A stretch of DNA of 36,912 nt from a virus, in the IMG/VR virus record IMGVR_UViG_3300023176_003532, positions 1 through 36,912 of that record; one strand, 5' to 3'. The translations under genes were made by a program, and so were the position numbers. A model generated the notes under the pieces. The model made no database searches and was not told the origin of the DNA. It saw only the letters and a list, made by a program, of their open reading frames with translations. Position 1 is the first letter of the stretch; each line of letters begins with the position of its first letter. Shown here in pieces: positions 9,882 to 32,993 of the stretch.

Positions 9882-11243
9882 ATGAAAAATTTTAGTGATT
9901 TTTTATCAAATCAAAATGAAAAAGCAGAAAGTGTTCCTACTATTGTAGAGAGCACTTCTTCTGTTTTACCTACCTTTTCACCTAACATCAAAAGATTTAA
10001 CGATATATCTGACGAATTAGTTGAGATAAGAGTTTTGCGATCTTTGAGTAAAGGTGTTGTTCGAAAACTTAAAGCAACATGGTCTGCATTAAAACGCGGT
10101 ATAGGAATGATTTTCAATCGCGAAGTAAAACGTGCACCATTGTTTAAAGAAGTTGAAATTAGTATTCCTGGTCAAGTTAAAGAAGACATACTTAACAGTA
10201 GTGATATTCTGAATGAAGGCCAATTAGAAGTAATTAAAGGAAACTATAACGAAGCTCTTGTATGTCAATTTCTTTTTAATCATAGAGGCGAAGAGGTTGA
10301 TATATCTAAAAAATACGAAAAGTATAGAGCAAGTATTAACCAAACAGTTTCAAAATGGGATAAAGATTTAAGAGCTATGGATCCTAAAAAGTATAATGCT
10401 AATATTGCGATTATACGTAAAGGTTCTCAAGACATGGCTAATTATCTTATCGACCAATCAGTTCAACAAAAAGCTACTATCATAGGAGCTTACCTCGATA
10501 ATCTTGCATTCCAAGATGGTATCGATTTTAAAGCAGACATTCGTATTGCTATCATGAAAGAAGGTAAAGAAATCCTTGATGGTTATTCTTTAAAACTATA
10601 TTCAAATAAATCAGTAGGATTAGCAAATACAACTGCTCGTGGCTTATGTCAACATTTAGGTGGAGATAAGTACGGAAATAAATTTGATCAAATAGCAAAG
10701 AAAGATACAGTATTAACTGATCTTATTAAAAAGGCTGGTGATTTAGATAAGATTAAGCAAGACCACAAGAAACATTTAAAGGGTGATGAAAAAGCAACTA
10801 ATAGATTAAAAACATTACGTGGTTTAACTGATGATCAAATCAATAATCTTAGTCAAGCAGAATTAGAAAAAGATAGAAAAGAAGCACGTAATCCTATCAA
10901 TCCTAGAGTAGCTGAACTCGTATATCAAACAATTAAAGACTTAGAAGGTACATCACAGCTTGGTGAACGCATCTTAGATATTATGGGATTTAATGATAAA
11001 GAAACAAAGATGTTAATGGCTATTACAACTGCTAAAAAATCTCAAATTATTTCTAAACATCCAGATTTAGATTTAAGTGATATTAAAATAGACCCACCTG
11101 CAGGACGAGTTACAATTAATATTGTAGGGCCAACAGGTAAAAATATTGTTACCTTTGGTGTTAAAGAAGGTGAGAAGAAAGCGGTATCAGGCTCAGTTAG
11201 TTTTGCAGGAATAGAACCAGAAGATTACGACGAGTATATATGA
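9882..11243 (+). CDS. Virion-associated protein with capsid-targeting-like N-terminus, possible PD-(D/E)XK fold
   Basis: The 453-residue protein starts MKNFSDFLSNQ, a relaxed form of the packaged-protein motif seen in many genes here; an IVE-S site at 21-24 would suit prohead-protease cleavage. The central region has ADIRIAIMKEGKEILDGYSLKLYS (Asp219, Lys238): an Asp on one strand and S-x-K on the next, reminiscent of PD-(D/E)XK nucleases. Glu124 in GNYNEALVCQFL could be the helix glutamate. The C-terminal third is Lys-rich and helical. It is the first gene after a late promoter and overlaps the kinase gene (ATGA). The nuclease idea is tentative. Confidence 0.5.
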   Translation: MKNFSDFLSNQNEKAESVPTIVESTSSVLPTFSPNIKRFNDISDELVEIRVLRSLSKGVVRKLKATWSALKRGIGMIFNREVKRAPLFKEVEISIPGQVKEDILNSSDILNEGQLEVIKGNYNEALVCQFLFNHRGEEVDISKKYEKYRASINQTVSKWDKDLRAMDPKKYNANIAIIRKGSQDMANYLIDQSVQQKATIIGAYLDNLAFQDGIDFKADIRIAIMKEGKEILDGYSLKLYSNKSVGLANTTARGLCQHLGGDKYGNKFDQIAKKDTVLTDLIKKAGDLDKIKQDHKKHLKGDEKATNRLKTLRGLTDDQINNLSQAELEKDRKEARNPINPRVAELVYQTIKDLEGTSQLGERILDIMGFNDKETKMLMAITTAKKSQIISKHPDLDLSDIKIDPPAGRVTINIVGPTGKNIVTFGVKEGEKKAVSGSVSFAGIEPEDYDEYI

Positions 11244-11905
11244 TAACGTTTAAAGATTTTTTAGAAGAAGGTGTAAATGATCCTGGAATATTTAAAGCGA
11301 TATTTCTAGCAGGCGGTCCTGGTTCAGGTAAATCATTTGTAGCAAGCCAAACTATTCCAAGAGCTCTTGGTCTTAAAATGGTAAATAGTGATGATGTATT
11401 TGAGCTTGGGATGAAAAAATCAGATTTAAGTTTATCACCTGAAGATATAACAAGTCCTAAAGGTCAAGAAATTCGAGCTAAGGCAAAAAAAATTACAAAT
11501 TTCAGAATGGAACTTTATAAGAAAGGTCGATTAGGTCTTATTATAGATGGTACAGGAAAAGATTACGATAAAATATCAAAACAGGTTGACAATCTTAGAA
11601 AATTAGGTTATGATTGTTATATGATATTTGTTAACACTAGTAAAGAGGTTGCACTAGAACGTAATAAATTACGCCCAAGATCTTTACCAGATGATATGGT
11701 AGTTAAGCTTTGGAATCGTGTACAAGAAAACATCGGTAAATTCCAACGTAAATTTGGTAATGCAAACTTTACCGTTGTAGATAATAATGACGCAAAAGAA
11801 AACATTTTACAAATGACATTTAAAGATGTTAGAAAATTTGTAAGTAAAGCTATCGAAAACAGAATTGCTAAAAAATGGATAGAGGATCAAAAGAAAATAA
11901 GATGA
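11240..11905 (+). CDS. P-loop kinase with capsid-targeting-like N-terminus
   Basis: The 221-residue protein begins MITFKDFLEE-GVND. A Walker A motif GGPGSGKS (25-32) is followed by VNSDDVF (about 48-54), LIIDGTGKDY and an Arg-rich lid (ERNKLRPRSLPDD). This is the layout of zeta-toxin/polynucleotide-kinase-like P-loop kinases. The substrate could be an RNA or DNA 5' end, a nucleotide or a sugar nucleotide. Overlaps on both sides couple it to the unknown protein upstream and the ligase-like protein downstream, which supports an end-healing role. The N-terminal ten residues look like a packaging tag ahead of the catalytic domain. Confidence 0.78.
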   Translation: MITFKDFLEEGVNDPGIFKAIFLAGGPGSGKSFVASQTIPRALGLKMVNSDDVFELGMKKSDLSLSPEDITSPKGQEIRAKAKKITNFRMELYKKGRLGLIIDGTGKDYDKISKQVDNLRKLGYDCYMIFVNTSKEVALERNKLRPRSLPDDMVVKLWNRVQENIGKFQRKFGNANFTVVDNNDAKENILQMTFKDVRKFVSKAIENRIAKKWIEDQKKIR

Positions 11906-13137
11906 TACGATTTAAGCAATATCTCGAAGAGGCTTCTGGTAAAAACTTACACATGACTCATTTGGAAGATGCGGTCATTGATGGTGGTGTAAATGGAACA
12001 CGTAATGTATTCTCTTATATTAGAGCAATACGAGATATGCTTGCAGGAAATACTTCTGCGCCTGTAAGTCTAACAGTTAAATGGGATGGAGCTCCAGCGT
12101 TATTTGCAGGAACTGATCCAAGTGACGGAAAATTCTTTGTCGCTAAAAAAGGAGTCTTTAATAAGAATCCAAAAATATATAAAACAAATGCAGAAATTGA
12201 TAATGATCTGAGTGGAGATTTAGGAGCTAAATTTAAAGTTGCTCTAGAAGAATTCTCTAAACTTGGAATTGAAGGAGTAGTTCAAGGTGATTTCTTATAT
12301 ACGAATGACGATCTTAAAGTGGAAAATATCGATGGAGAGCCGCATATTACTTTCCATCCTAATACGATTGTATACGCGGTACCAAAAAATAGCGAACTTG
12401 GAAAAGCAATTCAAGGATCCAAAATCGGTGTGGTATGGCACACAACATACAGAGGAGATTCTTTTGAATCAATGCAGGCAAGTTTTGGAAAGAAGATTGT
12501 CCCTTCTCTTAAAAAAGTCAAAAGCGTCTGGAATGTAGATGCTGTATTTGAAGATAAATCTGGTAATGTTACATTTACTAAAAAAGAAACAGATGATATT
12601 ACAAAAATACTTTCAGATGCAGGTCGTATTTTTAGAACAGTAAATGCTAAAGTTTTAAATGAATTAGGTACAAATACTGAATTAAACGCTAGAGTAAATA
12701 CTTATATTAATAGTAAAGTAAGAGATGGACAAAGAATAGGAGATCCTAAAGGTTTTGTTATTGGTTTACAAAGATATATTGAAGAATATTATCAAAAACA
12801 AGCAGATAAAGTAAAATCACAAGCTGCTAAAGATAAGAAAATTGGTATGGGTAAAGATGTATTAAAATTCTTTAGTAAAGCAAATATGAGACATATCCAT
12901 AGTATCTTTACCTTATATAATTTACTTGTTGATGCAAAACTAATGGTTATCGAAAAACTTAATCATGTAGATGGTCTCAAAACATTCCTTAAAACAAAAA
13001 ATGGATTTGAAGTAACAGGTCAGGAAGGATTTGTTGCTATCGACCACCTTGGAAGAAATAGTCTTAAACTTGTTGATAGATTAAATTTCAGTAAAGCTAA
13101 TTTCTCAACAGAATATATTAAAGGTTGGGAAAAATAG
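11902..13137 (+). CDS. Ligase-like covalent nucleotidyltransferase with capsid-targeting-like N-terminus
   Basis: The 411-residue protein begins MIRFKQYLEE-ASGK. It carries the ligase/capping-enzyme signature KWDG (60-63, predicted AMP-accepting Lys60), a motif III-like GVVQGDFLY (about 125-133), and C-terminal EGFVAIDH with SLKLVD (Glu375 and Lys389), matching motifs IV and V. This supports an ATP-dependent RNA or DNA ligase-type enzyme. I cannot name the family with certainty. The ATG at 11902 overlaps the kinase stop (ATGA). Kinase and ligase side by side recall T4 Pnkp/Rnl1 repair; the phosphatase partner may be the HAD protein at 32376. Confidence 0.75.
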   Translation: MIRFKQYLEEASGKNLHMTHLEDAVIDGGVNGTRNVFSYIRAIRDMLAGNTSAPVSLTVKWDGAPALFAGTDPSDGKFFVAKKGVFNKNPKIYKTNAEIDNDLSGDLGAKFKVALEEFSKLGIEGVVQGDFLYTNDDLKVENIDGEPHITFHPNTIVYAVPKNSELGKAIQGSKIGVVWHTTYRGDSFESMQASFGKKIVPSLKKVKSVWNVDAVFEDKSGNVTFTKKETDDITKILSDAGRIFRTVNAKVLNELGTNTELNARVNTYINSKVRDGQRIGDPKGFVIGLQRYIEEYYQKQADKVKSQAAKDKKIGMGKDVLKFFSKANMRHIHSIFTLYNLLVDAKLMVIEKLNHVDGLKTFLKTKNGFEVTGQEGFVAIDHLGRNSLKLVDRLNFSKANFSTEYIKGWEK

Positions 13138-13138
13138 T

Positions 13139-14056
13139 GTGGCTACTCAACAAGGGTTTGAATACGAAAAAAACGTTGCAGACTCATTAAAAAAACGAGG
13201 CTGGGTAAAACAGAATTATAGTCCAGCTGGTGCATCATCAGATCGTCCTGATCTAGATTTTCAATTTGAAGGAAAAGAATACGGTTGTGAACTGAAGCTT
13301 GGTTTAGCTTCGGCTGGATCTCTTGTTATTCATCATCTTGGACTTGGAAAATACGAATATGGTGATACAGAAGGTAGCGAAGAAAAAATATTCTTAAAAG
13401 GTATTGCACAAGATGTTGGGATGCTAAGAGTTATTGAACAAAAATGGAGACCCGAAGATCGCGATAGGTCCGGCAAACTACGTTATCTAAATTATCCTTC
13501 TTTACAAAGAGATAAAACACCTAAGTGGGCAGAACAACAAGAACATGCTCGAATGGTTTATGGTTGGACTTTAAGAAAAAGATATTTAAGAGATAAAAAC
13601 TTATGTCCTGATATCTATTTTAAAGTTCCTAGTTCAACTATTTCAAAATACTATAACTTAAAAAAGACTTATTATTTAAATGTTGCAACACACGGATTTT
13701 ACTTATTAGGGATCAAAGACCCAGCAAGAATAAATAAAGATAAGTACGGAATAGAAAAAGTACCATTGTGGGATGATTCACATGATTGTTATCTTAGAGT
13801 AAGAGTTCAATCAAAGGGTGTTTCTAAAGCAGAAGCTGCTGAAAAAAGAATAGGATACGTTAAAGCCGGAGCAGGACAAGGGTATCAATTCACAATGGAA
13901 CTACAATTTAAAAATTTAAGAAAATCTTCTTATAATATTGGTCCGACAATAGGAAGATCAGCACAAATCGATGAAGCTAAAATAATTCTTCCTGAAAGAG
14001 AAGAAAAGATTTTAGTTAATCAACAAAAACAAGGTACAGAAGAGATAGAATCATAA
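13139..14056 (+). CDS. PD-(D/E)XK nuclease-like protein
   Basis: The 305-residue protein has GFEYEKNVADSLKKRGW (helix with Glu) then RPDLDFQFEGKEYGCELK, a textbook PD-x(n)-(D/E)XK arrangement with Asp40, Glu51 and Lys53. This suggests a metal-dependent DNA or RNA nuclease. It begins with GTG one base after the ligase-like gene and has no capsid-targeting motif, unlike its three upstream neighbours. It may be a resolvase, a host-DNA nuclease or part of the end-processing set. The C-terminal half (about residues 120-305) is not recognised. Confidence 0.7.
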   Translation: MATQQGFEYEKNVADSLKKRGWVKQNYSPAGASSDRPDLDFQFEGKEYGCELKLGLASAGSLVIHHLGLGKYEYGDTEGSEEKIFLKGIAQDVGMLRVIEQKWRPEDRDRSGKLRYLNYPSLQRDKTPKWAEQQEHARMVYGWTLRKRYLRDKNLCPDIYFKVPSSTISKYYNLKKTYYLNVATHGFYLLGIKDPARINKDKYGIEKVPLWDDSHDCYLRVRVQSKGVSKAEAAEKRIGYVKAGAGQGYQFTMELQFKNLRKSSYNIGPTIGRSAQIDEAKIILPEREEKILVNQQKQGTEEIES

Positions 14057-14953: not shown

Positions 14954-15553
14954 ATGCAAAACTATGTTGAAAATAAATCTATAGCAGTAGTAGGCAATGC
15001 TCAGTCATTGTTTGATTTTCAATATGGTAGTGATATCGATGATCATCAGATAGTAATACGAATAAACAATTCTGCTATCTTCTACGACGATTTAAATCCT
15101 CGTCATTCTCACGGAACTAAAATAGACATTTGGGCTTTTTGGGAGTTTTGGCGTACTGCCACTTCTCACCATTCATATAAGACTCCACAGTTGGAGAAAT
15201 ATATTTACTCAAACAAATACAAATCTTTAAATCTTGCTATGACAAATCGAAATAACGGATTTGTTTATAACAATAAAGAATTTGGTAAAGATATAAAATT
15301 GCAAATGTTATCTGAAATAGGAACACCTTCATCAGGTATTTGTATTTTATATCTTTTAAATACAATGAATCCTTCTATTGTTAATGTATATGGAATGGAT
15401 TTTAAAAGAACAAAAACTTTTCATAAAGCATATAATGATGTTGATAATAATAGATTTGATCCATTTAATAATTTAAACTTTGAGTTTGAAGAAGAGTATG
15501 CAATGAAACAATTTTTTTCTCAAGAACGTTTTAATTTAAAAGGAGAAATATAA
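14954..15553 (+). CDS. GT29-like (sialyltransferase-fold) glycosyltransferase
   Basis: The 199-residue protein has AVVGNAQSLFDFQYGSDIDDH and VIRINNS (11-40), the 'VVGN-g-L...G-x-ID...VIR-N' pattern of the sialyltransferase motif in GT29-type enzymes, then GTPSSGICILYLL, resembling the second sialyl motif (p-T/S-S-G). Cellular relatives use CMP-linked nine-carbon sugars. The true sugar donor here is unknown. It is the first gene after the early promoter, and its stop overlaps the methyltransferase start. Confidence 0.75.
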   Translation: MQNYVENKSIAVVGNAQSLFDFQYGSDIDDHQIVIRINNSAIFYDDLNPRHSHGTKIDIWAFWEFWRTATSHHSYKTPQLEKYIYSNKYKSLNLAMTNRNNGFVYNNKEFGKDIKLQMLSEIGTPSSGICILYLLNTMNPSIVNVYGMDFKRTKTFHKAYNDVDNNRFDPFNNLNFEFEEEYAMKQFFSQERFNLKGEI

Positions 15554-16119
15554 TGGGAAGAATACGTGATAGAGGTCATGATGGTGGAAACATTTGGAGA
15601 TGGCACACTATTGAAAAATACGTTCGTAAGAACGGTTGGACTAGAGGAGCCGAACTTGGAGTTTGGTTAGGTGAAACATTTAAGCATCTTGTTCGCACTT
15701 GTCATAATCTAACTTTATATGGTGTTGATTTATATGAAGCACAACCTGGTTATGATGGACCTGAGCAATGGACTCCAGGAGAAAATGGACATGCTTGGAA
15801 TCATGAAGCATATTATTACGATCTAACAAATTTCTGTAAAGACTATTCAGATAGAGCTTTTATTATTAAAGATTATACAACTGAAGCCGCAAAGCAGATT
15901 GAAGACGAAAGTTTAGATTTTGTTTTTATCGATGCTGACCATTCTTATAATGGTGTTATGAGAGATGTTGAAGCATGGGCTCCAAAAGTTCGTAAAGGTG
16001 GTATGATTATTGGACATGATATTCATTTTCCAACCGTGAAACAAGCAGTAGAAGAGTTATACGGAGAAGGTAATTATACTGTAGAAGATGATTTTTTATG
16101 GTTAGTTGAAAAGCAATAA
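15553..16119 (+). CDS. Class I SAM-dependent methyltransferase
   Basis: The 188-residue protein has GAELGVWLGETF (32-43) as the SAM-binding glycine loop, and SLDFVFIDADHSYNGVMRDVEAW plus RKGGMIIGHDIHFP, typical of Methyltransf_24-type small-molecule and sugar methyltransferases with a metal-binding D-x-D-H and GHD. In this island it most likely O-methylates a sugar or a related metabolite. It starts within the preceding gene's stop codon. Confidence 0.85.
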   Translation: MGRIRDRGHDGGNIWRWHTIEKYVRKNGWTRGAELGVWLGETFKHLVRTCHNLTLYGVDLYEAQPGYDGPEQWTPGENGHAWNHEAYYYDLTNFCKDYSDRAFIIKDYTTEAAKQIEDESLDFVFIDADHSYNGVMRDVEAWAPKVRKGGMIIGHDIHFPTVKQAVEELYGEGNYTVEDDFLWLVEKQ

Positions 16120-16128
16120 GGAAATTTA

Positions 16129-16665
16129 GTGAAAACAACAGTGATTAATTTCTATGGTGGTCCGTCATCTGGTAAAAGTACGGCTGCCGCAGGATTATTT
16201 TATAAAATGAAAATGTTAGGACATAATGTTGAACTTACTGATGAGTTTGCAAAAGAATGTGTTTGGGAAGGAAACATTCCAATGCTTCAAGATCAATTGT
16301 GGGTATTAGCTCATCAACATAGAAAAATATTAAGATTAGTAGGTAAGGTAGATTATATTATTACAGATAGTCCAGTACTATTAAGTCCATTATATAGAGA
16401 AAAATATTCTGGTCCATTATATAGTGATTTAATAGACAGAATTGCTTTAGAAATATATGACAAATATCATAACATTAATTTTATGCTTACCCGGCCAAAA
16501 AATTTCGAACAAAACGGTAGAGCTCAAGACGAGGAATTAAGTAGAGAAATAGATAAAGAAATTATAGATCAATTTAGAAGATTAGGAATTCACTATAATA
16601 GACTTACTGAATTTGATCCGGCCGGAGAAGCTTTATCTCATATCACTTCAACAGTAACACATTAA
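16129..16665 (+). CDS. P-loop ATPase/kinase (AAA_28/NadR-like)
   Basis: The 178-residue protein has Walker A GGPSSGKS at 10-17 and a Walker B-like VDYIITDSPVLLSP at about 75-88. The general layout fits phage AAA_28 proteins related to nicotinamide-riboside kinase-like ATPases. The GTG start is preceded by AAGGAAA. The substrate is unknown. Neighbours suggest a nucleotide-sugar or cofactor kinase. It has no capsid-targeting tag. Confidence 0.75.
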   Translation: MKTTVINFYGGPSSGKSTAAAGLFYKMKMLGHNVELTDEFAKECVWEGNIPMLQDQLWVLAHQHRKILRLVGKVDYIITDSPVLLSPLYREKYSGPLYSDLIDRIALEIYDKYHNINFMLTRPKNFEQNGRAQDEELSREIDKEIIDQFRRLGIHYNRLTEFDPAGEALSHITSTVTH

Positions 16666-16674
16666 GGAAAAACA

Positions 16675-17817: not shown

Positions 17818-18476
17818 TGGAAACCTCTATTGAAAAAAAGTTAAGTCATATATGGATTGGACCAAAACCAGCTCCTCTTAAATGGATGTATACTTGGAGA
17901 GATAAACATCCTGATTGGGAATACAGTATATTTACTGATGCAATGTTAAAAGAAAGAAGATGGTATAACCAACATCTTATTGAACATTATTATAATGCAA
18001 GAGCTTGGTGTGGAGTGTCTGATTTAATAAGATATGAATTACTATATGAACAAGGTGGATTTATAGCAGAAGCTGATATGATTTGTTTAGAGAATACAGA
18101 TGAGTTATGGCAATCTCCAGAAGACCATGCTTATACATGTTATGAAAATGAAAAAGGTCGACCAGATTTTGTTCAACCTATTTTTGCTTGTAATCCTGGA
18201 AATGAGTTTATTAAATTATTAATTGATACACTTCATACATTAAAACCACATCAATTGCATCCACAACCTTTTGTGTCTACAGGAAATAGTTTTCTTTCAA
18301 AATTTGTTCCAAGCTTTAAACATAAATTGACAATTTTTCCATCACATTATTTTATACCACAATTTTATATTAATGGTGCAAAAAGATATGATGGACCAGA
18401 TAAAATTTACGCTGACCATAAGTGGGGTTCTACTGGAATGGGATATAATTGTGTAGATTATTCACAAGGAGTATAA
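17817..18476 (+). CDS. GT32-type (OCH1-like) glycosyltransferase
   Basis: The 219-residue protein starts with LSHIWIGPKPAPLKW and HPDWEYSIFTD, then SDLIRYELLYEQGGFIAEADM (68-88). This is the DXD-type sugar-binding region of GT32 enzymes, where the usual D-x-D is E-A-D (Glu85, Asp87). Such enzymes transfer hexoses from nucleotide sugars with a metal ion. The ATG overlaps the stop of glyA. The Glu substitution is conservative, so activity is plausible. Confidence 0.82.
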   Translation: METSIEKKLSHIWIGPKPAPLKWMYTWRDKHPDWEYSIFTDAMLKERRWYNQHLIEHYYNARAWCGVSDLIRYELLYEQGGFIAEADMICLENTDELWQSPEDHAYTCYENEKGRPDFVQPIFACNPGNEFIKLLIDTLHTLKPHQLHPQPFVSTGNSFLSKFVPSFKHKLTIFPSHYFIPQFYINGAKRYDGPDKIYADHKWGSTGMGYNCVDYSQGV

Positions 18477-19296: not shown

Positions 19297-19976
19297 AAGC
19301 TTATATCTTAAAAATCAATACTCCTATCTCAACACAATATGCAAAAATATGTGCAGATAGTTGTGATAAAGTAGGTTTAAAAAGAGAATACGTTCAAGGT
19401 TATCAAAATATGACTGGACGTGCAGCTTGGTGTTTAACTGGTATTAAACAAAGTTTTTATGAACCTATAAGATATATAGCTAATCCTACACCTTCTCAAA
19501 AAGCAAATGCTTGTAGTGCAGGACATGGTAAAATATGGAAAATGATTGCAGAAGGTGATGATGATGTCGGTATTGTATTAGAACATGACGCTATCATATT
19601 GCATAAACCCAATATAGAAATACCTGATAATTGCATTGTTGTATTAGGATATAAATTAACAGACCCATCAAGATATGATCATCAAAGAGCAGGTCCACCT
19701 GAAGAATTAATAGATATTGATGGACACGAAGGTGCGCATGCATATATGATGACAAAGAAAACTGCACAGTTTTTAGTAAATGAAATAGAACAAAGAGGCA
19801 TTTTAGGTGCAGTAGATAATGCATATTTTATTCGAGGACAACGACAAACAGCATTACCACTAAAAATTATGTCACCAACACCAGCTCTTGGTTGGTTAAG
19901 AGAATCAACAATCTGGTCACAAAGTGCTAATGTTAACTATGAATTTATATCCAGTTTTTCAAAATATTATAAATAA
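19293..19976 (+). CDS. GT25-like glycosyltransferase
   Basis: The 227-residue protein has ACSAGHGKIWKMIAEGDDDVGIVLEHDAI (about 73-101) and GAHAYMMTKKTAQFLV, the layout of GT25 LPS-type transferases (GH..iw...ivLEDDa and G..gYliS). The acidic motif reads E-H-D rather than E-D-D at 97-99. It starts at a GTG overlapping the microprotein gene and its last codons contain the late promoter for the next gene. Expected substrate: a surface glycan or virion protein modification. Confidence 0.72.
   Translation: MKAYILKINTPISTQYAKICADSCDKVGLKREYVQGYQNMTGRAAWCLTGIKQSFYEPIRYIANPTPSQKANACSAGHGKIWKMIAEGDDDVGIVLEHDAIILHKPNIEIPDNCIVVLGYKLTDPSRYDHQRAGPPEELIDIDGHEGAHAYMMTKKTAQFLVNEIEQRGILGAVDNAYFIRGQRQTALPLKIMSPTPALGWLRESTIWSQSANVNYEFISSFSKYYK
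19968..19975 (+). promoter_or_regulatory. T4-type late promoter (TATAAATA)
   Basis: An exact TATAAATA overlaps the end of the GT25-like gene (Tyr-Lys-stop codons TATAAATAA) and lies 38 bases before the 785-residue head-type protein. It starts the long late virion block. Confidence 0.75.
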
Positions 19977-20013
19977 ACCAGAGTAGATTTAAATTTTAAT
20001 TAGGATTTAATAA

Positions 20014-22371
20014 ATGAGTCAAACATTTCAAGAATTCTTGGATAGTGTATCGTCACTTCAGCTTGACGAGAAAACAACTGTGGCCGATCGAATCAGAGAC
20101 TTAAGATCAAGATCAAAAGATGATGAAGAACCTGTTGATGGCGAAAAACCAGCTGACAGTGAAGTTGATACAGACCAAGAACAACCAAATCCAGAACAAA
20201 GGGATAGAGTAAATCCCGATGACCCGTTTGCTGCCGAAAAAACACAAGACATGATGGATGATCTTGAAACAGCATTGGGTGATATTGCCTTAAAACTTAA
20301 AGCCGCAGAAAATATTAAAACAAATCCTGCATTAAGAAAAATCGGCAAGAAAAAATTAAATCCAAAGAATTATGTCAATATTAAACCTGTTGTAACCGAA
20401 GCACCACGCGGCGGTACAGCAGTTATCAGTTTTGGTCGTATGAATCCTGTGACAGTTGGTCATGAAAAATTGGTCAATAAAGTAATTTCTACTGCTTTGT
20501 CAATGGGTGGAACTCCGCTAATCTACTTATCTCACTCCACAGATCCTAAGAAGAATCCACTCTCATACGACCAAAAACTTTTATTCGCAAAACGCGCATT
20601 CGGAACCAAGTTGATTGTTAAATCAAGAGCACGCACCATTATAGAGGTTGCTAAAGAATTACAACGTCAATATAAAGAACTTGTGCTCATTGTCGGTTCA
20701 GATCGTGTTAGTGAATTTGAGACACTACTTACCAAATATAACGGTAAGGATTTTACCTTTGATAAGGTATCTGTAATATCAGCAGGTGATAGAGATCCTG
20801 ATGCTGATGACGTATCAGGAATGTCTGCTTCTAAAATGAGAAAAGCAGCTGCTGATGAAGACTTTGATTCTTTTAAGAAAGGACTTCCAAGAAAATTACA
20901 AAGTCAAGCTAAAGTTGTATATGACTCAGTAAGAGTTGGTATGGGACTTCAAGAAACAATGGAATTAGAATTCGAAGATTTTGATAACGAATTCTTAGAT
21001 GAAATCTTTATGGATGAAGATTTAACTGAAGAGTTATTAGGCGAAGCACTTACACGTCAACAAAGACTCAAGCGCAAAATGTTAATGAAGCGTATGAGAA
21101 GTAAAATTCGTATGGGTAGAAGACGTGCAATGAAAAGGGTTGCAACCGTTGAAGTAATCAAAAAACGTGCTCGTCGTTTAGTATATCGTATGTTGAAAAA
21201 GAGATTTGCAAAAGCAAATAGATATGCTGATATGCCATATAGTGCAAGACAACGCATTGATGATCGTGTAGCAAGAATTCCTAAAAATAGAATTGAAATT
21301 CTTATGAGACGATTTATGCCTAAAGTAAAAGCGGCTGAAAGAGCAAGACTCGCTTCTAAAATCGCTTCAAAGAAACCAAAGAATCCTACGGTTCAAAAGA
21401 AAAAACCAGTAATTAAAAAAGTTGATACATCTAAAGCTAAAAAAGAATCTTTAGATCAATTAGTTACTAATTACTTAAAAGAAAAAGTAGTTAATGGTAA
21501 ATTAGATCCGTTATCACCAATGGGTAAACAAAAACTTACTGGTCGAGAAGTTGCTCAGTATTATAGAGACAACCCTGCTGCAAAAAGAGCAGCACGAGAT
21601 GAGAAGACAAAATTAGCAATTGAATTAGCTCTTGACTTAGCAGGTAATATGAATTACGCTATTAAAGAAATTGAAAAGATTAAAAAAGGATTATCTAGAC
21701 ATCCAGAAGTTAAAAAAGCTTTAAGATTTACAAACGAAAATACAGAGAGTACATACAAAGAATATACTCTTGAACAAAGACTTTCAGAAGGTTCATCATA
21801 TCATACTGGACTAGCAAAGTCAACTGCTGATAAACGTAAAGCACAATTCAATAAACAAGCAAAAATGGCTGATGATAATCCAGATGCATATAAACCAGCA
21901 CCTGGTGATGCAACTGCAGAAACAAAACCAAGTAAACATACTTCTAAATTTAAGAAAATGTTTGGTGAAACTAATTATGAACGAGCAGGTTTGAAAAAAC
22001 CACACATGCTATTAGCACGCAATGGTTCAGTAGTTGTTGATAAACGGTTTAAAATTAATAAAAAAGGTTATGAAATAGAAGCAGAGCGAGAAGCAAAGCT
22101 TAAAGAATTATTAAGATTAGGGGAAGATCTTGAATTTGTATTCGAAAGTAATCCAGAAAAATCTCTTAGAAACAAAGCAGAAAAAACTGGAATCCCTTAT
22201 GGTATTCTTAAAAAAGTATTTGACCGTGGAGTCGCTGCTTGGAAATCAGGTCATCGACCAGGAACAACTCCTACTCAATGGGGATTGGCAAGAGTTAATA
22301 GTTTTGCAACTGGTGGAAAAACACAAAAAACAACCGATGCTGACTTGTGGAAACAACATAAGGGCAATTAA
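20014..22371 (+). CDS. Multidomain head-type protein with a nucleotidyltransferase domain
   Basis: The 785-residue protein appears to be a chain of modules. 1-125: acidic region beginning MSQTFQEFLD (packaging-tag-like). 135-310: HxGH-type nucleotidyltransferase with SFGRMNPVTVGH (139-150) and DVSGMSASKMRKA (266-278, the S-T-x-x-R-like motif). 320-345: acidic. 346-480: very basic helical region (RQQRLKRKMLMKRMRSKIRM). 530-575: helical repeat also seen in the protein at 22877. 590-655: a GLAKSTADKR...KHTSKFKKMFGE module common in marine T4-like phages. 710-785: a DUF5824-like region (GIPYGILKKVFDRGVAAWKSGHRPGTTPTQW, split here by one linker). Sites like VTE-A (127-130) and LGE-A (342-345) fit gp21 cleavage between modules. 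The enzyme's substrate is unknown. Confidence 0.7.
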   Translation: MSQTFQEFLDSVSSLQLDEKTTVADRIRDLRSRSKDDEEPVDGEKPADSEVDTDQEQPNPEQRDRVNPDDPFAAEKTQDMMDDLETALGDIALKLKAAENIKTNPALRKIGKKKLNPKNYVNIKPVVTEAPRGGTAVISFGRMNPVTVGHEKLVNKVISTALSMGGTPLIYLSHSTDPKKNPLSYDQKLLFAKRAFGTKLIVKSRARTIIEVAKELQRQYKELVLIVGSDRVSEFETLLTKYNGKDFTFDKVSVISAGDRDPDADDVSGMSASKMRKAAADEDFDSFKKGLPRKLQSQAKVVYDSVRVGMGLQETMELEFEDFDNEFLDEIFMDEDLTEELLGEALTRQQRLKRKMLMKRMRSKIRMGRRRAMKRVATVEVIKKRARRLVYRMLKKRFAKANRYADMPYSARQRIDDRVARIPKNRIEILMRRFMPKVKAAERARLASKIASKKPKNPTVQKKKPVIKKVDTSKAKKESLDQLVTNYLKEKVVNGKLDPLSPMGKQKLTGREVAQYYRDNPAAKRAARDEKTKLAIELALDLAGNMNYAIKEIEKIKKGLSRHPEVKKALRFTNENTESTYKEYTLEQRLSEGSSYHTGLAKSTADKRKAQFNKQAKMADDNPDAYKPAPGDATAETKPSKHTSKFKKMFGETNYERAGLKKPHMLLARNGSVVVDKRFKINKKGYEIEAEREAKLKELLRLGEDLEFVFESNPEKSLRNKAEKTGIPYGILKKVFDRGVAAWKSGHRPGTTPTQWGLARVNSFATGGKTQKTTDADLWKQHKGN

Positions 22372-22391: not shown

Positions 22392-22877
22392 ATGAAAACT
22401 GTAAAAGGATCAATAAGAGAAGCATTAGCACAGATTGCTACTTATAATAAACAACCTATTGCTGAACAAGACCTCGAAAAAGAATTAAATCAACATACTG
22501 AAGGCTCATTCTATGGCCGAGACGACTTAGTCAAGAAATGGTCTACACCTAAAAAGGATAGACACCTGTATATTAAGTTAGCTAAAGACGATGCAAGTGG
22601 ACATCATCGTGCTTCAATGAAGCGTAAAGGTAATGAGAAGAAGATTGCTGACCTTAAGAGGCAAGGATATAAAGAAGTACCATTTGAATCAAAAGAAGAA
22701 TTACAACAATGTATCGATGAAAGAGAAACAGATAAATACGGCAATCCAAAACTAAGTGATGCCGATAAAGATAAGATTGGTAAACTCAGACAAAAAATTA
22801 AAGATCACGAAATTTTAGCTAATAGACTAAGAGACGAAATTAGTCAAATTAAAAAGAACGCAGGGATTGATAACTAA
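22392..22877 (+). CDS. Hypothetical late protein with IRE-A start motif
   Basis: The 161-residue protein begins MKTVKGSIREALAQ; IRE-A is a good gp21-type cleavage site at residues 8-11. The middle (TPKKDRHLYIKLAKDDASGHHRASMKRKGNEKKI) is basic and the end is a coiled-coil helix (LRQKIKDHEILANRLRDEISQIKKN). No enzyme motif seen. The stop overlaps the next start (TAATG). A packaged internal protein is likely from its neighbours and start sequence. Confidence 0.5.
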   Translation: MKTVKGSIREALAQIATYNKQPIAEQDLEKELNQHTEGSFYGRDDLVKKWSTPKKDRHLYIKLAKDDASGHHRASMKRKGNEKKIADLKRQGYKEVPFESKEELQQCIDERETDKYGNPKLSDADKDKIGKLRQKIKDHEILANRLRDEISQIKKNAGIDN

Positions 22878-24214
22878 TGAAAAAATTAACAGACTTAATT
22901 AACGAAAGTGGAGCAGGTTTCTGGGGAACTACTTCAGCAAAAGATAAGCTTGCCTCAGATACTCCCGGCCAAGGTGTTAAGAAGAAAAAATTAACAGACA
23001 TAGCTATAGAAAATTTTAATATGAATTTAGTAGAAATGACTGTATCATTTAAGTTTGAAACTCTTCAAGACGCAGCAAAAGCAGAAAGACGTGCAATGGC
23101 TATGGGTTTAGAAACAAGTTCAGAAAAAATGAAAGGTCAAAAAGTTTGGTTGTTACATTTAACTGGTAAGTATACAGATATTACGAAATGGCTTAAGAGA
23201 ACTCAACCTGAAAAACCAGTAGAAGAAGAATTAAAACCAACAAGTAAAACAAAAACGATTAGTCCTCGTGATTATAAAATTAAAGGTCATACCGTGCGCG
23301 TAAAACCACAAAGTGGTAAGTTTCATTTAAGTATTGACGGAAAAGAAATTGGCGTATATAGTTCAGAAAAAAGTGCAATGCAAACTGCATCAAAACATAT
23401 TTACGTAGGTTTAAAAGAAGAAAGAGATGATTTTGATAGTCCTATTACTTCAAAAGATATTAAAATGGCAATCGGTATTGCTAATGACCCAAGATATAAG
23501 CAGGGTAATTATAGTGCAGCTTATCAAAAAATCTCAAGATTGAAAAAAGATTTACAAAAACATCCTCGAGTTAGAGACGCTTTAAGACAAGCGAATGAAA
23601 ACTTCGATTTCGACATATTAGACGAAGGCGCAGTTGCTGTTTCTACTGTAGAAAAAGAAATTAGAAGCAATGGTGGAAAAATCATAAGACCAGAAACTAA
23701 CGATAAGAAAATCACATTTACATATAATGGTGGTAAGAGAACTGTTCCTGTAGATAGAGGGTTTGTTCAAGATCACTATTATATGCAATTACAAAAAATG
23801 TTTGAAGAAGTTGAAATTGAAGAAGCAACCTTAGCTGCTCGTAATGGTCAAGTTCTTGATCATATGCTCGGTTTACTTAAGACTAAGCTTATGAAAGATA
23901 TGGAAAACGGCAATTTATCAGACGCTGAAGTGGTGGCTAAACTTGTTAAGAGACGTATTGAAAATGATACCAAACGTAAAGGTCACGCTAGATTAAAAAA
24001 CGAAGATAGTCAGTGGGGCGTAGAAAATAGATTTATGAGATACGATAGTGAAAAATTAAAAGATATGCGTAAAAAGAAATTAAATTCTATTACAGCTTTA
24101 AAAGGACAGCATAGTACTATGACAGCTTTAGGAGGTAAGAATCCTAGAGGTGAAGAAATAAGAGAACTAGAAAAAGATATTAAAATGATCGATGCTGCGC
24201 TACAATCAAAATGA
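22877..24214 (+). CDS. Multidomain packaged-type head protein
   Basis: The 445-residue protein begins MKKLTDLINE-SGAG, a capsid-targeting-like sequence with INE-S as the potential cleavage site. It contains a helical module (AIGIANDPRYKQGNYSAAYQ... HPRVRDALRQANEN, about 195-240) also present in the 20014 protein. It has further gp21-like sites ILDE-GAV and IEE-A. The C-terminal 110 residues are basic and helical (KLVKRRIENDTKRKGHARLK). No enzyme motif. Its stop overlaps the start at 24211 (ATGA). It reads like a virion polyprotein made from shuffled modules. Confidence 0.6.
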   Translation: MKKLTDLINESGAGFWGTTSAKDKLASDTPGQGVKKKKLTDIAIENFNMNLVEMTVSFKFETLQDAAKAERRAMAMGLETSSEKMKGQKVWLLHLTGKYTDITKWLKRTQPEKPVEEELKPTSKTKTISPRDYKIKGHTVRVKPQSGKFHLSIDGKEIGVYSSEKSAMQTASKHIYVGLKEERDDFDSPITSKDIKMAIGIANDPRYKQGNYSAAYQKISRLKKDLQKHPRVRDALRQANENFDFDILDEGAVAVSTVEKEIRSNGGKIIRPETNDKKITFTYNGGKRTVPVDRGFVQDHYYMQLQKMFEEVEIEEATLAARNGQVLDHMLGLLKTKLMKDMENGNLSDAEVVAKLVKRRIENDTKRKGHARLKNEDSQWGVENRFMRYDSEKLKDMRKKKLNSITALKGQHSTMTALGGKNPRGEEIRELEKDIKMIDAALQSK

Positions 24215-24585
24215 AAACCTTTAGAGAATTTTTAGAAGAAAAGTTAAAAGTCTCTGATGGACTCGGAGCTTGGATTGATGATTTTATGAAATCAGATGCT
24301 CCACAATTCAAAGATGCTGACAAAGAAAAACGTCGAGATATGGCAATAGCAGCCTTTACTGCTGCAGGTGGTAAACTTGACGAAGGATCTGAATCGTGGG
24401 AAGATGGATATAAGCGTAGAGTTGTAAAAACGACCAAACCAGAACATAAAGAAAAAGGTTATAATTGGAGAATTAAAGGTAAAGATAAAGCACATCTTAC
24501 TATTAAACTCTATAAGAATAAACCTTCACAAGAAGAATTTAACAAACAAATGAAACGTGTCGCTGGACACGAGTTCGGAGGATAG
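24211..24585 (+). CDS. Packaged-type small head protein with a near-canonical capsid-targeting sequence
   Basis: The 124-residue protein begins MKTFREFLEE-KLKV, the closest match in this window to T4's internal-protein targeting sequence MKTYQEFIAE. It continues with GLGAWIDDFMKSDAPQFKDADKEKRRDMAIAAFTAAG, a module known from other marine phage virion proteins, and a small basic C-terminus. Likely an internal protein injected or retained with DNA. Overlaps the previous gene by four bases. Confidence 0.65.
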   Translation: MKTFREFLEEKLKVSDGLGAWIDDFMKSDAPQFKDADKEKRRDMAIAAFTAAGGKLDEGSESWEDGYKRRVVKTTKPEHKEKGYNWRIKGKDKAHLTIKLYKNKPSQEEFNKQMKRVAGHEFGG

Positions 24586-25791: not shown

Positions 25792-26172
25792 ATGAAAGGA
25801 TTTCGCGAGTTTATCAACGAATCAAACTTTGGCTTATATGAAGGAGTTACAGTTCCTTTAGAACAACCAATGATTGAATTTGAAGAAGAACAAGAGCCAG
25901 AATTAAATAAACCAAAACGTAGTTCTGGTAAAAAGAAATACGTTGTTTATGTAAGAGATCCTCAAACAGGTAATGTTAAAAAGATTAATTTTGGTGATGA
26001 AAAAGGCGGATTAACTGCAAAGATTAATGATAGAGATGCCGCACGGTCTTTTGCAGCTCGTCATAATTGTGATACAAAAACAGATAAAATGAGTGCAGGT
26101 TATTGGGCATGTCGTTTACCAAGATATGCTAAATCACTTGGACTTAAAGGTGGCGGCAGTTACTGGTGGTAA
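25792..26172 (+). CDS. Packaged-type protein with a DUF5872-like domain
   Basis: The 126-residue protein begins MKGFREFINE-SNFG (targeting-like). A disordered acidic linker follows, then a compact domain from about 47 to 126: KKKYVVYVRDPQTGNVKKINFG, DRDAARSFAARHNCDTKTDK and AGYWACRLPRYAKSLGL...WW. This Cys/Trp-containing domain is found in many marine phage proteins and I recall it as DUF5872. Its function is unknown. Cys and His residues suggest possible metal binding. Confidence 0.65.
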   Translation: MKGFREFINESNFGLYEGVTVPLEQPMIEFEEEQEPELNKPKRSSGKKKYVVYVRDPQTGNVKKINFGDEKGGLTAKINDRDAARSFAARHNCDTKTDKMSAGYWACRLPRYAKSLGLKGGGSYWW

Positions 26173-29910: not shown

Positions 29911-30519
29911 GTGTCATTGCATAAAATAATTCAACACGCGATTGATAACGATCCGTTAAAAATGAAAGAAGCATTCGATGAAGAAATGACTTCGCGTTTA
30001 CGTGTTGCATTAGAAAATGCATATAATAGTATTAATGAAGCAGAAGTCGAAGATGATGAAGAACCAGTAGATGATATGGAAGAGCCATTGGACATGGAAC
30101 CAGAAATGGAAATGAGACAAGTGGCAATTCAAGTATCTGGTGCTAAAGATCTTAAAAAGATATTAGAAGCTTCAAATGAAAAAGGTAAAGTATCTTTAAG
30201 TGAAATGTTAGGTTTTGATTCTGGCGATGAAGACCCTGAATATAAAGGTACAGATGCTGTTGTATATCCATCTTCACTTATAGATGAGGAAGGCTTAGAA
30301 GAAATTCAACAAAAATGTCAGTACCAAACTAAATTATCAGAATTCACCGCAAAACGTATTGCGATACATTTAAAAACTGGTGGAAAAGTCTCTAACTGGA
30401 ATCCAGATCAAGACAACGATAAAGAGATTGGGTTTGACGAATTATATTATAACGCTTTATTAACAAATACAGTTGAACCTAATGAATCAGGTTTTATATA
30501 CAGAGCTAAGTTAATTTAA
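29911..30519 (+). CDS. Prohead core-type protein, gp67-like paralogue with an extra domain
   Basis: The 202-residue protein starts (GTG) with LHKIIQHAIDNDPLKMKEAFDEEMTSRLRVALE, nearly identical to the N-terminus of the next gene. An acidic stretch (EDDEEPVDDMEEPLDMEPEMEM) then leads to a distinct C-terminal domain (about 65-202). The shared N-terminal module resembles T4 gp67, a core protein of the capsid precursor, while the added domain is not recognised. INE-A near residue 43 may be a gp21 site. Probable scaffold/core protein. Confidence 0.6.
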   Translation: MSLHKIIQHAIDNDPLKMKEAFDEEMTSRLRVALENAYNSINEAEVEDDEEPVDDMEEPLDMEPEMEMRQVAIQVSGAKDLKKILEASNEKGKVSLSEMLGFDSGDEDPEYKGTDAVVYPSSLIDEEGLEEIQQKCQYQTKLSEFTAKRIAIHLKTGGKVSNWNPDQDNDKEIGFDELYYNALLTNTVEPNESGFIYRAKLI

Positions 30520-30534: not shown

Positions 30535-30801
30535 ATGTCTATTGAAAAAATAATTGCCGAAGCAATTGATAATAATCCTCTTAAAATGAAAGAGGCTTTT
30601 GAAGAAGAGATGAATGCTAGAATTCGTGCCTCTTTAGAAGAAAAATATAATGAAATGGCTGAAGGTAAAGTCAAAGAAGAAGACGAAGACGAAGACGAAG
30701 AAGATGAGTCTGATGAAGACGAATCTGATGAGGAAGAAGTCGAGTCTGACGACGAAGACGAAGACGAAGACGAGAAAGAAGAGTCTAAATCTAAAAAATA
30801 A
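30535..30801 (+). CDS. 67: Prohead core protein, gp67-like
   Basis: The 88-residue protein matches the T4 gp67 plan: a short helical N-terminus (EKIIAEAIDNNPLKMKEAFEEEMNARIRASL, compare the I-x-x-x-D-L-x-x-A-x-x-x-F-x-x-x-M region of T4 gp67) followed by an extremely acidic Glu/Asp tail. T4 gp67 (80 residues) is an essential prohead core protein that gp21 degrades during maturation. GAAGAC-type codon repeats at about 30680-30780 encode the acidic tail. AGGAG precedes the ATG. Confidence 0.8.
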   Translation: MSIEKIIAEAIDNNPLKMKEAFEEEMNARIRASLEEKYNEMAEGKVKEEDEDEDEEDESDEDESDEEEVESDDEDEDEDEKEESKSKK

Positions 30802-31707: not shown

Positions 31708-31806
31708 AAAAACTTATAATATAATTCTTAATAGAAGCCCATTTTCAAATAAATACAATTGTCAACATAATGCACTAAGTGATAATTTTTTTAGCTTGGA
31801 GGCACG

Positions 31807-32337
31807 ATGTCAGACGACACCGTTTCACATATCAAAACAGACATAGCTCTTATAAAAAACGACCTCAAACAAATTGAAAGATTTTTTGATAAGGTTGATT
31901 CTGTTGTAGATGAAATCACTGCTTTATCGAAAGGCATGGCTGTACAACAGCAAATTATTGAGAGGTTTGATCAGAAACTCGATTACTTAGAAGAAAAAAT
32001 CGACACTCAGTCACGCATCAATGTTGAGACTAAATTTGCTTTAAAAGAAGAACTTGACGATCACAAGCAGAACTTTAGAAGGGATATGCTTAAAGCTATG
32101 GAAGACGCAAGAAATAAACACTCCGAAGTCAACGAGCGTAGCCGTGAATGGCATGAAGATAGACACAAAGAAACAATACGACTTATTGAAAATATTGCAA
32201 AAGATTTACAAGATAAGATTGATAACCAAGAAGTTCGTATAAGAGGAATTGAAAACCTTAAATGGTGGTTGATTGGTGCAATCGCAGTAGCCACATTTGT
32301 AGTGCAATTCTTAGATATCTCATTATTTCATAAATAA
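31807..32337 (+). CDS. Coiled-coil protein with C-terminal membrane anchor (XhlA-like)
   Basis: The 176-residue protein is a long coiled coil (residues 5-145) ending in a single membrane span (WWLIGAIAVATFVVQFL). That tail-anchored layout resembles XhlA/hemolysin-type phage lysis or holin-associated proteins. GGAGG lies before the ATG. It follows the spanins, so a role in lysis timing is plausible. A TTGTCA...GATAAT pair (31758-31785) is a weak promoter candidate. Confidence 0.55.
   Translation: MSDDTVSHIKTDIALIKNDLKQIERFFDKVDSVVDEITALSKGMAVQQQIIERFDQKLDYLEEKIDTQSRINVETKFALKEELDDHKQNFRRDMLKAMEDARNKHSEVNERSREWHEDRHKETIRLIENIAKDLQDKIDNQEVRIRGIENLKWWLIGAIAVATFVVQFLDISLFHK
32329..32336 (+). promoter_or_regulatory. 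Late-promoter-like element (CATAAATA)
   Basis: One mismatch to TATAAATA, at the end of the coiled-coil gene and 40 bases before the HAD gene. With the sigma70 promoter at 32341, it may let the HAD gene be expressed both early and late. Confidence 0.35.
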
Positions 32338-32340
32338 CAG

Positions 32341-32369
32341 TTGACATTTCACATAAACTAGTATATAAT
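32341..32369 (+). promoter_or_regulatory. Consensus sigma70 promoter placed for a leaderless message
   Basis: TTGACA (32341-32346), 17-base spacer, TATAAT (32364-32369). Starting seven bases further on places transcription at or near the A of the ATG at 32376, with no room for a ribosome-binding site. Confidence 0.82.
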
Positions 32370-32375
32370 AACAAT

Positions 32376-32993
32376 ATGATTAGGTTCCAAGAATATCTAG
32401 AAGAAAAAAAAGGTTCAAAAGGATTGACAATTTTTGATATTGATGATACAATGTTTATATCAAAAGCTAGTGTATTAGTACGTGATACTAAAACAAATAA
32501 GATTGTAAAATCTCTTACCCCTAAAACTTTTAATAGTTATAAATTAAAAAAGGGTGAAGAGTATGATTATTCAGAATTTAAATCATCTAAATTGTTTTTT
32601 CAAACAGCAACACCCATTGGTAAAATTATAGCCAAAGCTAAAGCAATAATAAAGAATGCAGTAAAATCTGGTAGTAAAGTTATTATTGTAACAGCTCGTT
32701 CTGATATGGACGATAGAGATCTTTTTCTTAAAACGTTTCAATCGCATGGTATAGACATTAAAAATGTTCATATCCATAGAGCTGGTAATCTTGGTAGTGG
32801 TTCTTCAGCTGAAAACAAAAAAGTCATATTCCGTAATTTTTTAAAGACTGGTGAATATGGTAGAATAAGACTATTTGATGATCATCTTGAAAATTTAAAA
32901 GCTCTCCTCGACCTTAAAAAAGACTTTCCAGAAGTCGATTTCTTTGCTTATAAGGTTGATCCAAAATCTGGTCGTACACAAACCGTTAAATAA
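32376..32993 (+). CDS. HAD-family phosphatase with capsid-targeting-like N-terminus
   Basis: The 205-residue protein begins MIRFQEYLEE-KKGS, nearly identical to the start of the ligase-like protein (MIRFKQYLEE). The HAD core follows: FDIDDTMF (nucleophile Asp21, acid Asp23), IIVTARSD (Thr107), a Lys near 149-150 and RLFDDHLEN (Asp169/170). T4 Pnkp uses this fold as a 3'-phosphatase next to its kinase domain; here kinase and phosphatase are separate genes about 21 kb apart. Substrate unknown. No ribosome-binding site; a leaderless transcript is expected. Confidence 0.8.
   Translation: MIRFQEYLEEKKGSKGLTIFDIDDTMFISKASVLVRDTKTNKIVKSLTPKTFNSYKLKKGEEYDYSEFKSSKLFFQTATPIGKIIAKAKAIIKNAVKSGSKVIIVTARSDMDDRDLFLKTFQSHGIDIKNVHIHRAGNLGSGSSAENKKVIFRNFLKTGEYGRIRLFDDHLENLKALLDLKKDFPEVDFFAYKVDPKSGRTQTVK

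Follow-up and report, generated by a model that had tools for sequence, protein, structure and literature searches.

Capsid-type N-terminal tags on predicted kinase, ligase-like and phosphatase proteins of a marine T4-like phage: a possible head-delivered end-processing set

Results

The sequence analysed here, called the window throughout, is the whole of the 36.9-kb virus record IMGVR_UViG_3300023176_003532, from a marine T4-like phage of bacteria, and our subject is a plus-strand gene cluster in which three predicted end-processing enzymes begin with almost the same ten residues. The first gene (11240..11905) encodes a P-loop kinase of the Zeta_toxin/AAA_33 type (PF06414 3.7e-12, PF13671 2.4e-10) starting MITFKDFLEE (11240-11269); the second (11902..13137) encodes a DUF6267 protein (PF19782 1.8e-105), a predicted ligase-like covalent nucleotidyltransferase starting MIRFKQYLEE (11902-11931); and the third (32376..32993) encodes a HAD phosphatase, predicted from its AlphaFold2 model and invariant residues, starting MIRFQEYLEE (32376-32405). 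The open reading frame (ORF) of the ligase-like protein can be read from 11875; relatives keep the decamer at the start equivalent to 11902, and Lys60 is numbered from there. A sequence-only reading of this DNA had proposed that the three form a capsid-packaged kit for repairing nucleic acid ends. The coordinates and frames of the three decamers proved correct, and the three activity types lie, as it had said, on separate chains, with the kinase and HAD genes about 20 kb apart. In an annotated phage collection, the closest relatives of the kinase are those of the Methylophilales phages Melnitz (58%) and of Pelagibacter phage HTVC008M (51%), both Kyanoviridae, while those of the DUF6267 protein are in Phage C48C1 (50%) and Stenotrophomonas phage DLP_6 (48.5%).

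The decamers had been likened to the T4 capsid-targeting sequence, and this likeness holds at the level of residues. According to a passage in PMC9026906, the first ten residues of T4 IPIII are sufficient for packaging, residues 4 and 7 serving targeting and residues 8 and 10 processing, and gp21 cleaves after L/I-x-E; all three window N-termini obey this published rule. When the rule was cast strictly as M..[FY]..[FY][LI].E (positions 4 and 7 aromatic, position 8 L/I and position 10 E) and applied to 51 plus-strand window genes picked from the ORF list, five matched: the three enzymes together with 24211 (MKTFREFLEE) and 25792 (MKGFREFINE). Shuffling the N-terminal residues of each gene gave a mean of 0.004 matches, with none of 4000 shuffles reaching five, and none of 10,798 internal positions matched. 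A looser scan of both window strands returned six matches, all on the plus strand, and looser or tag-like variants are also found on 22877 (MKKLTDLINE) and, by eye, on 20014 (MSQTFQEFLDS), 9882 (MKNFSDFLSN) and 24594 (MKRFKSFNEA). The tag is therefore not a mark of the three enzymes alone. The strict rule also picked out 3 of 128, 4 of 186 and 1 of 153 ORFs on three large related contigs, where 0.02, 0.05 and 0.035 were expected, and all eight of these ORFs lie on a single strand, within 15 kb per contig, in the stretch that holds HAD and/or DUF6267.

Conservation of the tag was followed in ORFs that contained the family's anchor motif and were hence counted (226 of 231 for DUF6267, 80 of 80 for HAD, and 111 of 118 for the kinase). 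The tag is present on 78 of the 80 homologous HAD ORFs, and 29 of 31 distinct HAD N-termini fit a looser pattern. All 27 distinct HAD decamers have F/Y at position 4, Y/F at 7, L/I at 8 and E at 10; positions 2, 3, 5 and 9 vary. Since the decamers were themselves selected with the pattern, counting by position tests it fairly for HAD alone, where 2 of 31 N-termini were set aside. For DUF6267, E10 is kept in at least 90% of 87 sequences, and all 20 aligned relatives of the kinase share E10 and the following G11. Residues 1-16 of the DUF6267 AlphaFold2 model have a predicted local distance difference test score (pLDDT) below 50, with a helix at 4-9, and are taken as a disordered tag region. Just past the tag, at DUF6267 residues 15-23 (window 11944-11970), N15, H17, H20 and D23 are invariant in 87 of 87 sequences; we take these four to lie outside any ligase motif known to us.

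Virion data exist for one member of this tagged group. As a passage in PMC3037559 reports, virions of phage S-SM1 contain a "putative citidylyltransferase (T4-GC190)" detected by mass spectrometry. T4-GC190 of S-SM1 is SSM1_190, which begins MKKFSAFLNE and is 45% identical over 195 residues to the window protein encoded at 20014. The same passage counts T4-GC190 among the proteins that S-PM2 encodes but that were without detection in the S-PM2 virion (PMC3037559), and in S-PM2 the homologous HIGH domain is fused behind an untagged DUF6267. The contrast between the two virions is at most suggestive. A gp21-type prohead protease (PF03420) is found in 9 of 10 large relatives, including one (G003) whose HAD is 100% identical to that of the window; the protease gene lies outside the window. 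The direct virion evidence is thus for a tagged relative from the cluster rather than for the three window proteins, and we infer that the kinase, the ligase-like protein and the HAD protein would likewise be packaged in the head. S-PM2 p138 and p139 (AJ630128, L089:11992-13771), annotated as two proteins, are one split DUF6267-HIGH fusion, and the labels T4-GC71 and T4-GC190 cut across DUF6267 because the S-PM2 annotation splits this fusion. In a literature search, the words "cytitidyltransferase" and "cyanophage" occurred together in no paper, and the name "DUF6267" in none.

The KxDG protein had been read as ligase-like, and both its predicted fold and its invariant motifs bear this out. 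Covalent nucleotidyltransferases share motif I (KxDG), motif IV (EG) and motif V (Lys). In DUF6267, K60 (motif I), E375 (motif IV) and K389 (motif V) follow one another in ligase order, and K60, D62, G63, E375, G376, K389 and R393 are invariant in 87 sequences (the window protein and 86 hand-picked from 280 rows); the second motif-V Lys is replaced (KLVDR). In the AlphaFold2 model (pLDDT 86.7) a helical stretch, 227-353, precedes motif IV, and the S-SM1 DUF6267 (324 aa) is shorter in the corresponding stretch. Among the 50 structural matches listed for the model, 46 carry ligase titles and four are chains of non-homologous end joining complexes, presumably Lig4, with Z 6.0-8.8 and root-mean-square deviation 3.6-5.2. 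TbREL1 leads the list (Z 8.8, 191 residues, 4.1 Å), which also includes Naegleria RNA ligase (8.3), T4 Rnl2 (7.9) and T4 Rnl1 (7.3); RNA ligases occupy ranks 1-13. Among predicted viral structures (BFVD) there were 13 matches below E 0.001, led by the S-PM2 591-aa fusion (E 1e-34), which we took for the DUF6267 family itself; the next match was the RNA ligase of Agrobacterium phage Atu_ph07 (E 5.7e-3). A 9-row DUF6267 profile found no match up to E 10 among the sequences of solved structures, so that the fold claim rests on the predicted model. The Rnl1 and Rnl2 Pfam models (RNA_lig_T4_1, RNA_ligase) did not match, PF19782 being the sole Pfam family listed at E up to 1. From the model and motifs we regard DUF6267 as a putative covalent nucleotidyltransferase that would adenylylate itself on Lys60.

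For the HAD protein, the AlphaFold2 model has pLDDT 88.1, and D21, D23, T106, K148, D168 and D169 are invariant in 58 hand-picked sequences. By Z, its best match is the T4 Pnkp 3'-phosphatase (13.4 over 134 residues, 2.7 Å), tied with AphA (13.0) and with a chain of the Pnkp1/Rnl/Hen1 complex (12.6). The protein also matches phrog_415, "polynucleotide kinase" (4.4e-10), and neither the single sequence nor a profile gave anything meaningful against the sequences of solved structures. The T4 Pnkp phosphatase is thus the closest match by Z, in a tie with AphA, and the proposed kinship is a candidate assignment. HADs of another type, NT5C (PF06941), lie in the cluster or by the kinase in HTVC008M and Melnitz-3 (L086:11128-11718, L087:19277-19789, L083:20773-21300).

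The kinase matches phrog_12810, a family with no assigned function (8e-47), phrog_2071 ATPase (4.9e-22) and phrog_505 polynucleotide kinase (7.3e-7), and its Walker-A residues G30 and K31 are invariant in 20 hand-picked relatives. A single-sequence search of solved structures was set aside, having returned mainly designed proteins, hemagglutinins and adenylate kinases, and a profile was used instead. Its matches were Zeta toxin (1.2e-6), adenylate kinases (from 7.4e-5), PSTK (2.7e-4), 4gp7 (1.1e-3) and T4 Pnk (6.3e-3); 4gp7 is listed as "Metallophosphoesterase", and we take it to be a bacterial Pnkp kinase domain. The assignment as a P-loop kinase is therefore borne out, with polynucleotides as one candidate substrate among several. 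Of 118 kinase ORFs, 11 continue into a fused Pol-beta motif after the kinase and 10 contain a HIGH-type motif; the Pol-beta motif, GSILTKRYRxDADLD, occurs in 25 ORFs of the loci. In one locus (L155:9995-12727), a tag-like N-terminus is followed within a single 910-aa chain by the P-loop kinase, a Pol-beta domain (PF01909 NTP_transf_2 3.3e-6, Polbeta 9.8e-4) and a HIGH-type domain; no RlaP-named family is among the 11 families listed for this fusion.

The HIGH-type nucleotidylyltransferase of the window (20014..22371, plus strand, 785 aa; phrog_3041 2.8e-96) carries its HIGH-type domain at about residues 134-320, and DUF5824 (PF19141 2.9e-15) at its C-terminus, the latter also being present in the Melnitz-3 homologue. 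In relatives, the HIGH-type domain is fused to DUF6267 or to the kinase. A search of solved structures with the HIGH-domain profile was discarded, giving matches at chance level only.

Linkage of the three genes in relatives had been expected, and it was found in part. Among 80 kinase loci, 18 had 4-kb flanks on both sides, and 16 of these 18 have a same-strand DUF6267 gene no more than 4 kb away. For a second HAD subfamily, 30 of 38 loci contain DUF6267, and in 29 the two genes abut (within 30 nt) with HAD directly before DUF6267; this linkage, in which many members are near-identical, is partly the product of query choice, since the search started from a protein encoded next to DUF6267. The kinase was found on 15 of 38 large contigs picked via one or other gene, HAD on 10, including one weak match, and DUF6267 on 36, and all three genes occur together on a single contig (G025). 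DUF6267 is thus a neighbour of the kinase and of the second HAD subfamily, and the complete trio was recovered on 1 of 38 contigs only.

The timing of expression was approached through the octamer TATAAATA, which we take to be the T4 late-promoter consensus. A late-promoter-like element of T4 type, TATAAATAAACCA, stands at 9839..9851 on the plus strand, 43 nt before the 9882 start, and a second one at 19968..19980 (plus strand), 46 nt before the 20014 start; this exact 13-mer occurs twice in the window, against 0 expected. The octamer at 9839 precedes the 9882-13137 unit, which includes the kinase and DUF6267 and which, judging from the gene overlap, is probably co-transcribed. At 32329..32336 (plus strand), 47 nt before the HAD start, lies CATAAATA, one mismatch from the late octamer. 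A window-wide excess of late promoters was considered and rejected (four octamers found, six expected), and the late-promoter signal rests on octamer placement and the shared 13-mer only. In relatives, the exact octamer is found 5' of HAD in 39 of 57 distinct stretches, which are distinct yet related by descent, as are those of the other genes. The counts upstream of other cluster genes are 36 of 106 for U1 (a group described below), 28 of 117 for the HIGH-type transferase, 25 of 164 for DUF6267 and 5 of 67 for the kinase, compared with 0 of 115 for gp41, 0 of 87 for UvsX, 1 of 20 for gp32 and 155 of 1938 for unclassified ORFs. Counted by genomes, the octamer lies within 110 nt 5' of gp18, the positive control (5/5), gp23 (3/5), gp21 (3/5), gp13 (2/5), gp20 (1/5) and gp6 (0/4), and of gp32 in 2 of 3 genomes; within the same distance it was found before none of gp41 (the negative control, 0/5), UvsX, gp43, gp44, gp45, gp46, gp55, gp61 and NrdA, in three to six genomes each. 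Late expression is more in keeping with cargo prepared for a subsequent infection than with enzymes synthesised when they are needed.

The cluster is bordered on the left by a gp41-type helicase (8403..9836, 49% identity to HTVC008M gp41) and on the right by a gp61-type primase (33057..34070, 39% identity to HTVC008M gp61), both on the plus strand, and the order gp41, DUF6267 cluster, gp61 is likewise annotated in HTVC008M, Melnitz-3, S-PM2 and S-SM1. Three plus-strand genes between these borders encode tagged proteins without a recognised enzyme domain: 22877..24214, with the looser tag MKKLTDLINE and no family match above the cut-off in family library scans; 24211..24585, found in the strict tag scan; and 25792..26172, also from the strict scan, which matches a family with no assigned function (phrog_7595 2.8e-15). 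These three would suit an explanation in which the tagged proteins are virion proteins with degenerate enzyme folds and a structural or DNA-condensing role. We consider this highly improbable in view of the catalytic residues, which are invariant in 87 DUF6267 and 58 HAD sequences and, for Walker-A G30/K31, in 20 kinases.

Several genes next to DUF6267 encode proteins in which a PD-(D/E)XK-like motif can be made out by eye. In the window, these are the 453-aa protein with the tag-like N-terminus MKNFSDFLSN (9882..11243, plus strand), which gave no family above the cut-off in family library scans and has homologues such that four loci, the window included, carry it, and the protein without tag directly 3' of DUF6267 (13139..14056, plus strand; phrog_26930 8.6e-11). 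The same PHROG family also matches the gene immediately 5' of DUF6267 in one related locus (L264, 4.9e-11). Upstream genes in four loci (L361, L264, L263 and L282) encode further such proteins, some of them tagged, and a single-linkage group with this motif, U1, lies directly 5' of DUF6267 in 120 of 217 cases. A single family of these proteins was rejected: by hhalign, the groups 5' of DUF6267 showed no kinship among one another, and the sole strong pair, U5 with the 13139 group, is uninformative because two of five sequences are common to both. Their putative nuclease nature is a motif impression.

At 14954-19976, an apparent surface-sugar island (glycosyltransferase-, sulfotransferase- and GlyA-like by eye) divides the cluster into two; an AAA_28 ATPase (PF13521 9e-12) lies within it at 16129, and each of the flanking halves is headed by one TATAAATAAACCA element. 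Further downstream, the adjacent genes 29911-30519 and 30535-30801 share an N-terminal module (about 55% identity over 54 residues), are acidic beyond it, and possibly encode prohead core proteins.

Discussion

The tags, predicted folds, invariant residues, linkage and late-promoter motifs computed here argue for a set of tagged end-processing enzymes delivered from the capsid. The sequence-only interpretation is thus partly supported, by the tag, the ligase-like fold, the HAD likeness and the gene linkage in relatives; as an end-repair kit it gains from tag, fold and linkage and is incomplete in that further proteins carry the tag, among them a HIGH-type nucleotidylyltransferase.

In the mechanism that we propose, to which we give a probability of about 0.5, the decamer would be a capsid-targeting sequence of the T4 type, leading the late-expressed enzymes into the prohead core, where the prohead protease would cut after L/I-x-E, and the freed enzymes would be injected with the genome. 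The HAD protein would then strip 3' phosphates, the P-loop kinase would phosphorylate 5' ends, and DUF6267, adenylylated on Lys60 by its own action, would seal the ends. The chemistry of T4 Pnkp plus RNA ligase would in this way be split into separate pre-loaded proteins, most probably for the repair of RNA (tRNA) that a defence nuclease of the host cleaves as infection begins. Packaging, activities, joint action and RNA substrate of the three proteins are all parts of this proposal. A passage in PMC7824862 describes an RNA end-repair ensemble of kinase, HAD and Pol-beta in jumbo phages. We regard RNA repair as the likeliest role, since RNA ligases rank first, the model leaves no room for a C-terminal OB domain, and kinase, HAD and Pol-beta match this ensemble.

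Several findings weigh against a capsid-delivered end-processing set, beginning with the tag itself. Of 131 distinct DUF6267 N-termini, 78 fit, 32 keep the processing end alone and 21 show neither; of 54 distinct kinase N-termini, 6 follow the full decamer rule, 47 keep just the [ILVM]xE end and one has neither. The S-SM1 DUF6267 has no tag, and the strict scan of HTVC008M gave 0 matches, some of its cluster proteins showing shortened tag forms. The exact octamer was found within 110 nt of neither HAD (2 contigs) nor DUF6267 (4 contigs). The predominance of trimmed kinase tags and the untagged S-SM1 protein would suit a decamer that is simply an N-terminal helix with another role and no capsid signal, on enzymes acting in the cell late in infection. 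Such an account is hard to reconcile with a decamer that fits the T4 residue rule in unrelated proteins and with a tagged relative in S-SM1 virions, and we give it very little credence.

Further points on the same side concern the ligase-like protein. The top Z of 8.8 is near background, as a best Z of 7 to 8 is common for models without a clear match; the first DNA ligase, at rank 14 with Z 7.4, is close behind; and Foldseek results for the model are weak, the best (E 0.049) being a DNA ligase. Two of ten records (G029 and G030) match RNA-ligase (PF09414), Rnl1 (PF09511) and DNA-ligase models beside DUF6267, so that several ligases coexist in one phage, and DUF6267 as a simple substitute for Rnl-type ligases is weakened as an idea. 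In a rival reading, the packaged enzymes would instead act on DNA, repairing nicks or damaged genome ends inside the head or as the genome enters the cell. Both DNA and RNA are substrates of T4-type polynucleotide kinases, DNA ligases are among the structural matches from rank 14 downwards and top the list of Foldseek, and seven of ten large relatives, some of them fragments, have no PF01068 DNA ligase. We nevertheless hold a DNA substrate to be unlikely, with RNA ligases filling ranks 1-13. A C-terminal OB domain is typical of DNA ligases, and DUF6267 has no room for one because a single helix (393-401) follows motif V in the model. Moreover, a Pol-beta domain in the kinase chain fits RNA end repair as a passage on jumbo phages describes it (PMC7824862).

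The remaining adverse points concern the partners of DUF6267 in the proposed set. Zeta toxin, adenylate kinase and PSTK outscore polynucleotide kinases for the window kinase; Foldseek ranks AphA first for the HAD model (4.8e-5) with T4 Pnkp at 0.022; and simple end repair offers no role for a HIGH-type nucleotidylyltransferase. In the HAD subfamily to which the window protein belongs, 0 of 80 loci contain DUF6267, the distance in the window being 19 kb, and in the annotated phage collection 461 records match DUF6267 at E up to 1e-5, compared with 13 for the kinase and one for the window-type HAD. The HIGH-type transferase, the tie with AphA and the presence of NT5C-type HADs in HTVC008M and Melnitz-3 keep small-molecule chemistry a contender. 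The packaged set would then work in nucleotide or cofactor metabolism, for example of NAD or CoA, with a NadR- or COASY-like pair of kinase and HIGH domains and an AphA- or NT5C-like nucleotidase as the HAD. Kinase and HIGH domains in one 910-aa chain suit this, as do weak matches to phrog_3462 nicotinamide-nucleotide adenylyltransferase (5.8e-4) and NadR (E 0.45). It leaves unexplained the ligase-like DUF6267 and the HAD gene directly before DUF6267, and the HIGH-domain sequence matches in the PDB are at chance level; we therefore think it a doubtful alternative to end repair.

Tentatively, we extend the proposal of packaged RNA repair to marine T4-like phages in general. These might pre-load and inject a repair set made up of DUF6267 as a new RNA ligase family and a split Pnkp, with a nucleotide-adding Pol-beta enzyme and a PD-(D/E)XK-like protein added in some lineages, and so reverse tRNA cleavage by host defences before any phage gene expression. 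In searches for packaged RNA repair and for RNA ligase in this phage group, none of the listed titles and abstract openings made this claim. DUF6267 has so far had no assigned function despite its 461 matching phage records, and packaging could explain why some phages retain it alongside ligases of the Rnl and DNA types. Should it prove to be a packaged ligase acting with a split Pnkp, RNA repair would join the injected anti-defence arsenal of ocean phages, beside the T4 anti-restriction internal proteins, as a first-response function that is delivered rather than expressed. The N-terminal rule, moreover, makes the head cargo of T4-like phages predictable from sequence.

One of the nearest known systems is T4-GC190 of cyanophage S-SM1, with a HIGH domain homologous to that of window 20014, the tag MKKFSAFLNE and a gene that adjoins DUF6267; S-SM1 differs in that its record (G036) has no kinase match and its DUF6267 is untagged and shorter. 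T4 Pnkp with Rnl1/Rnl2 offers a P-loop kinase, a HAD that is closest, in a tie, to the window protein, and an RNA ligase resembling the predicted nucleotidyltransferase. Here, in contrast, the chains are separate, DUF6267 is unmatched by the Rnl Pfam models, and capsid-type tags and late-promoter motifs are present; to our knowledge, the products of T4 pseT and rnlA are not packaged. The RNA repair sets known from jumbo phages and from bacteria (RNA ligase, PNK, HAD and RlaP; Pnkp1/Rnl/Hen1) share the joint activity types and, in relatives of the window, a Pol-beta domain fused to or near the kinase, while the present set has no match to an RlaP-named model and carries capsid-type tags and a HIGH-type nucleotidylyltransferase. 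With T4 IPI-IPIII and Alt the likeness lies in a ten-residue N-terminal tag with the same key positions, an L/I-x-E site and, in relatives, a gp21-family protease. The cargo is different: as passages in PMC3012670 and PMC9026906 describe it, T4 packages anti-restriction proteins and an ADP-ribosyltransferase, whereas here the tagged proteins resemble end-processing enzymes.

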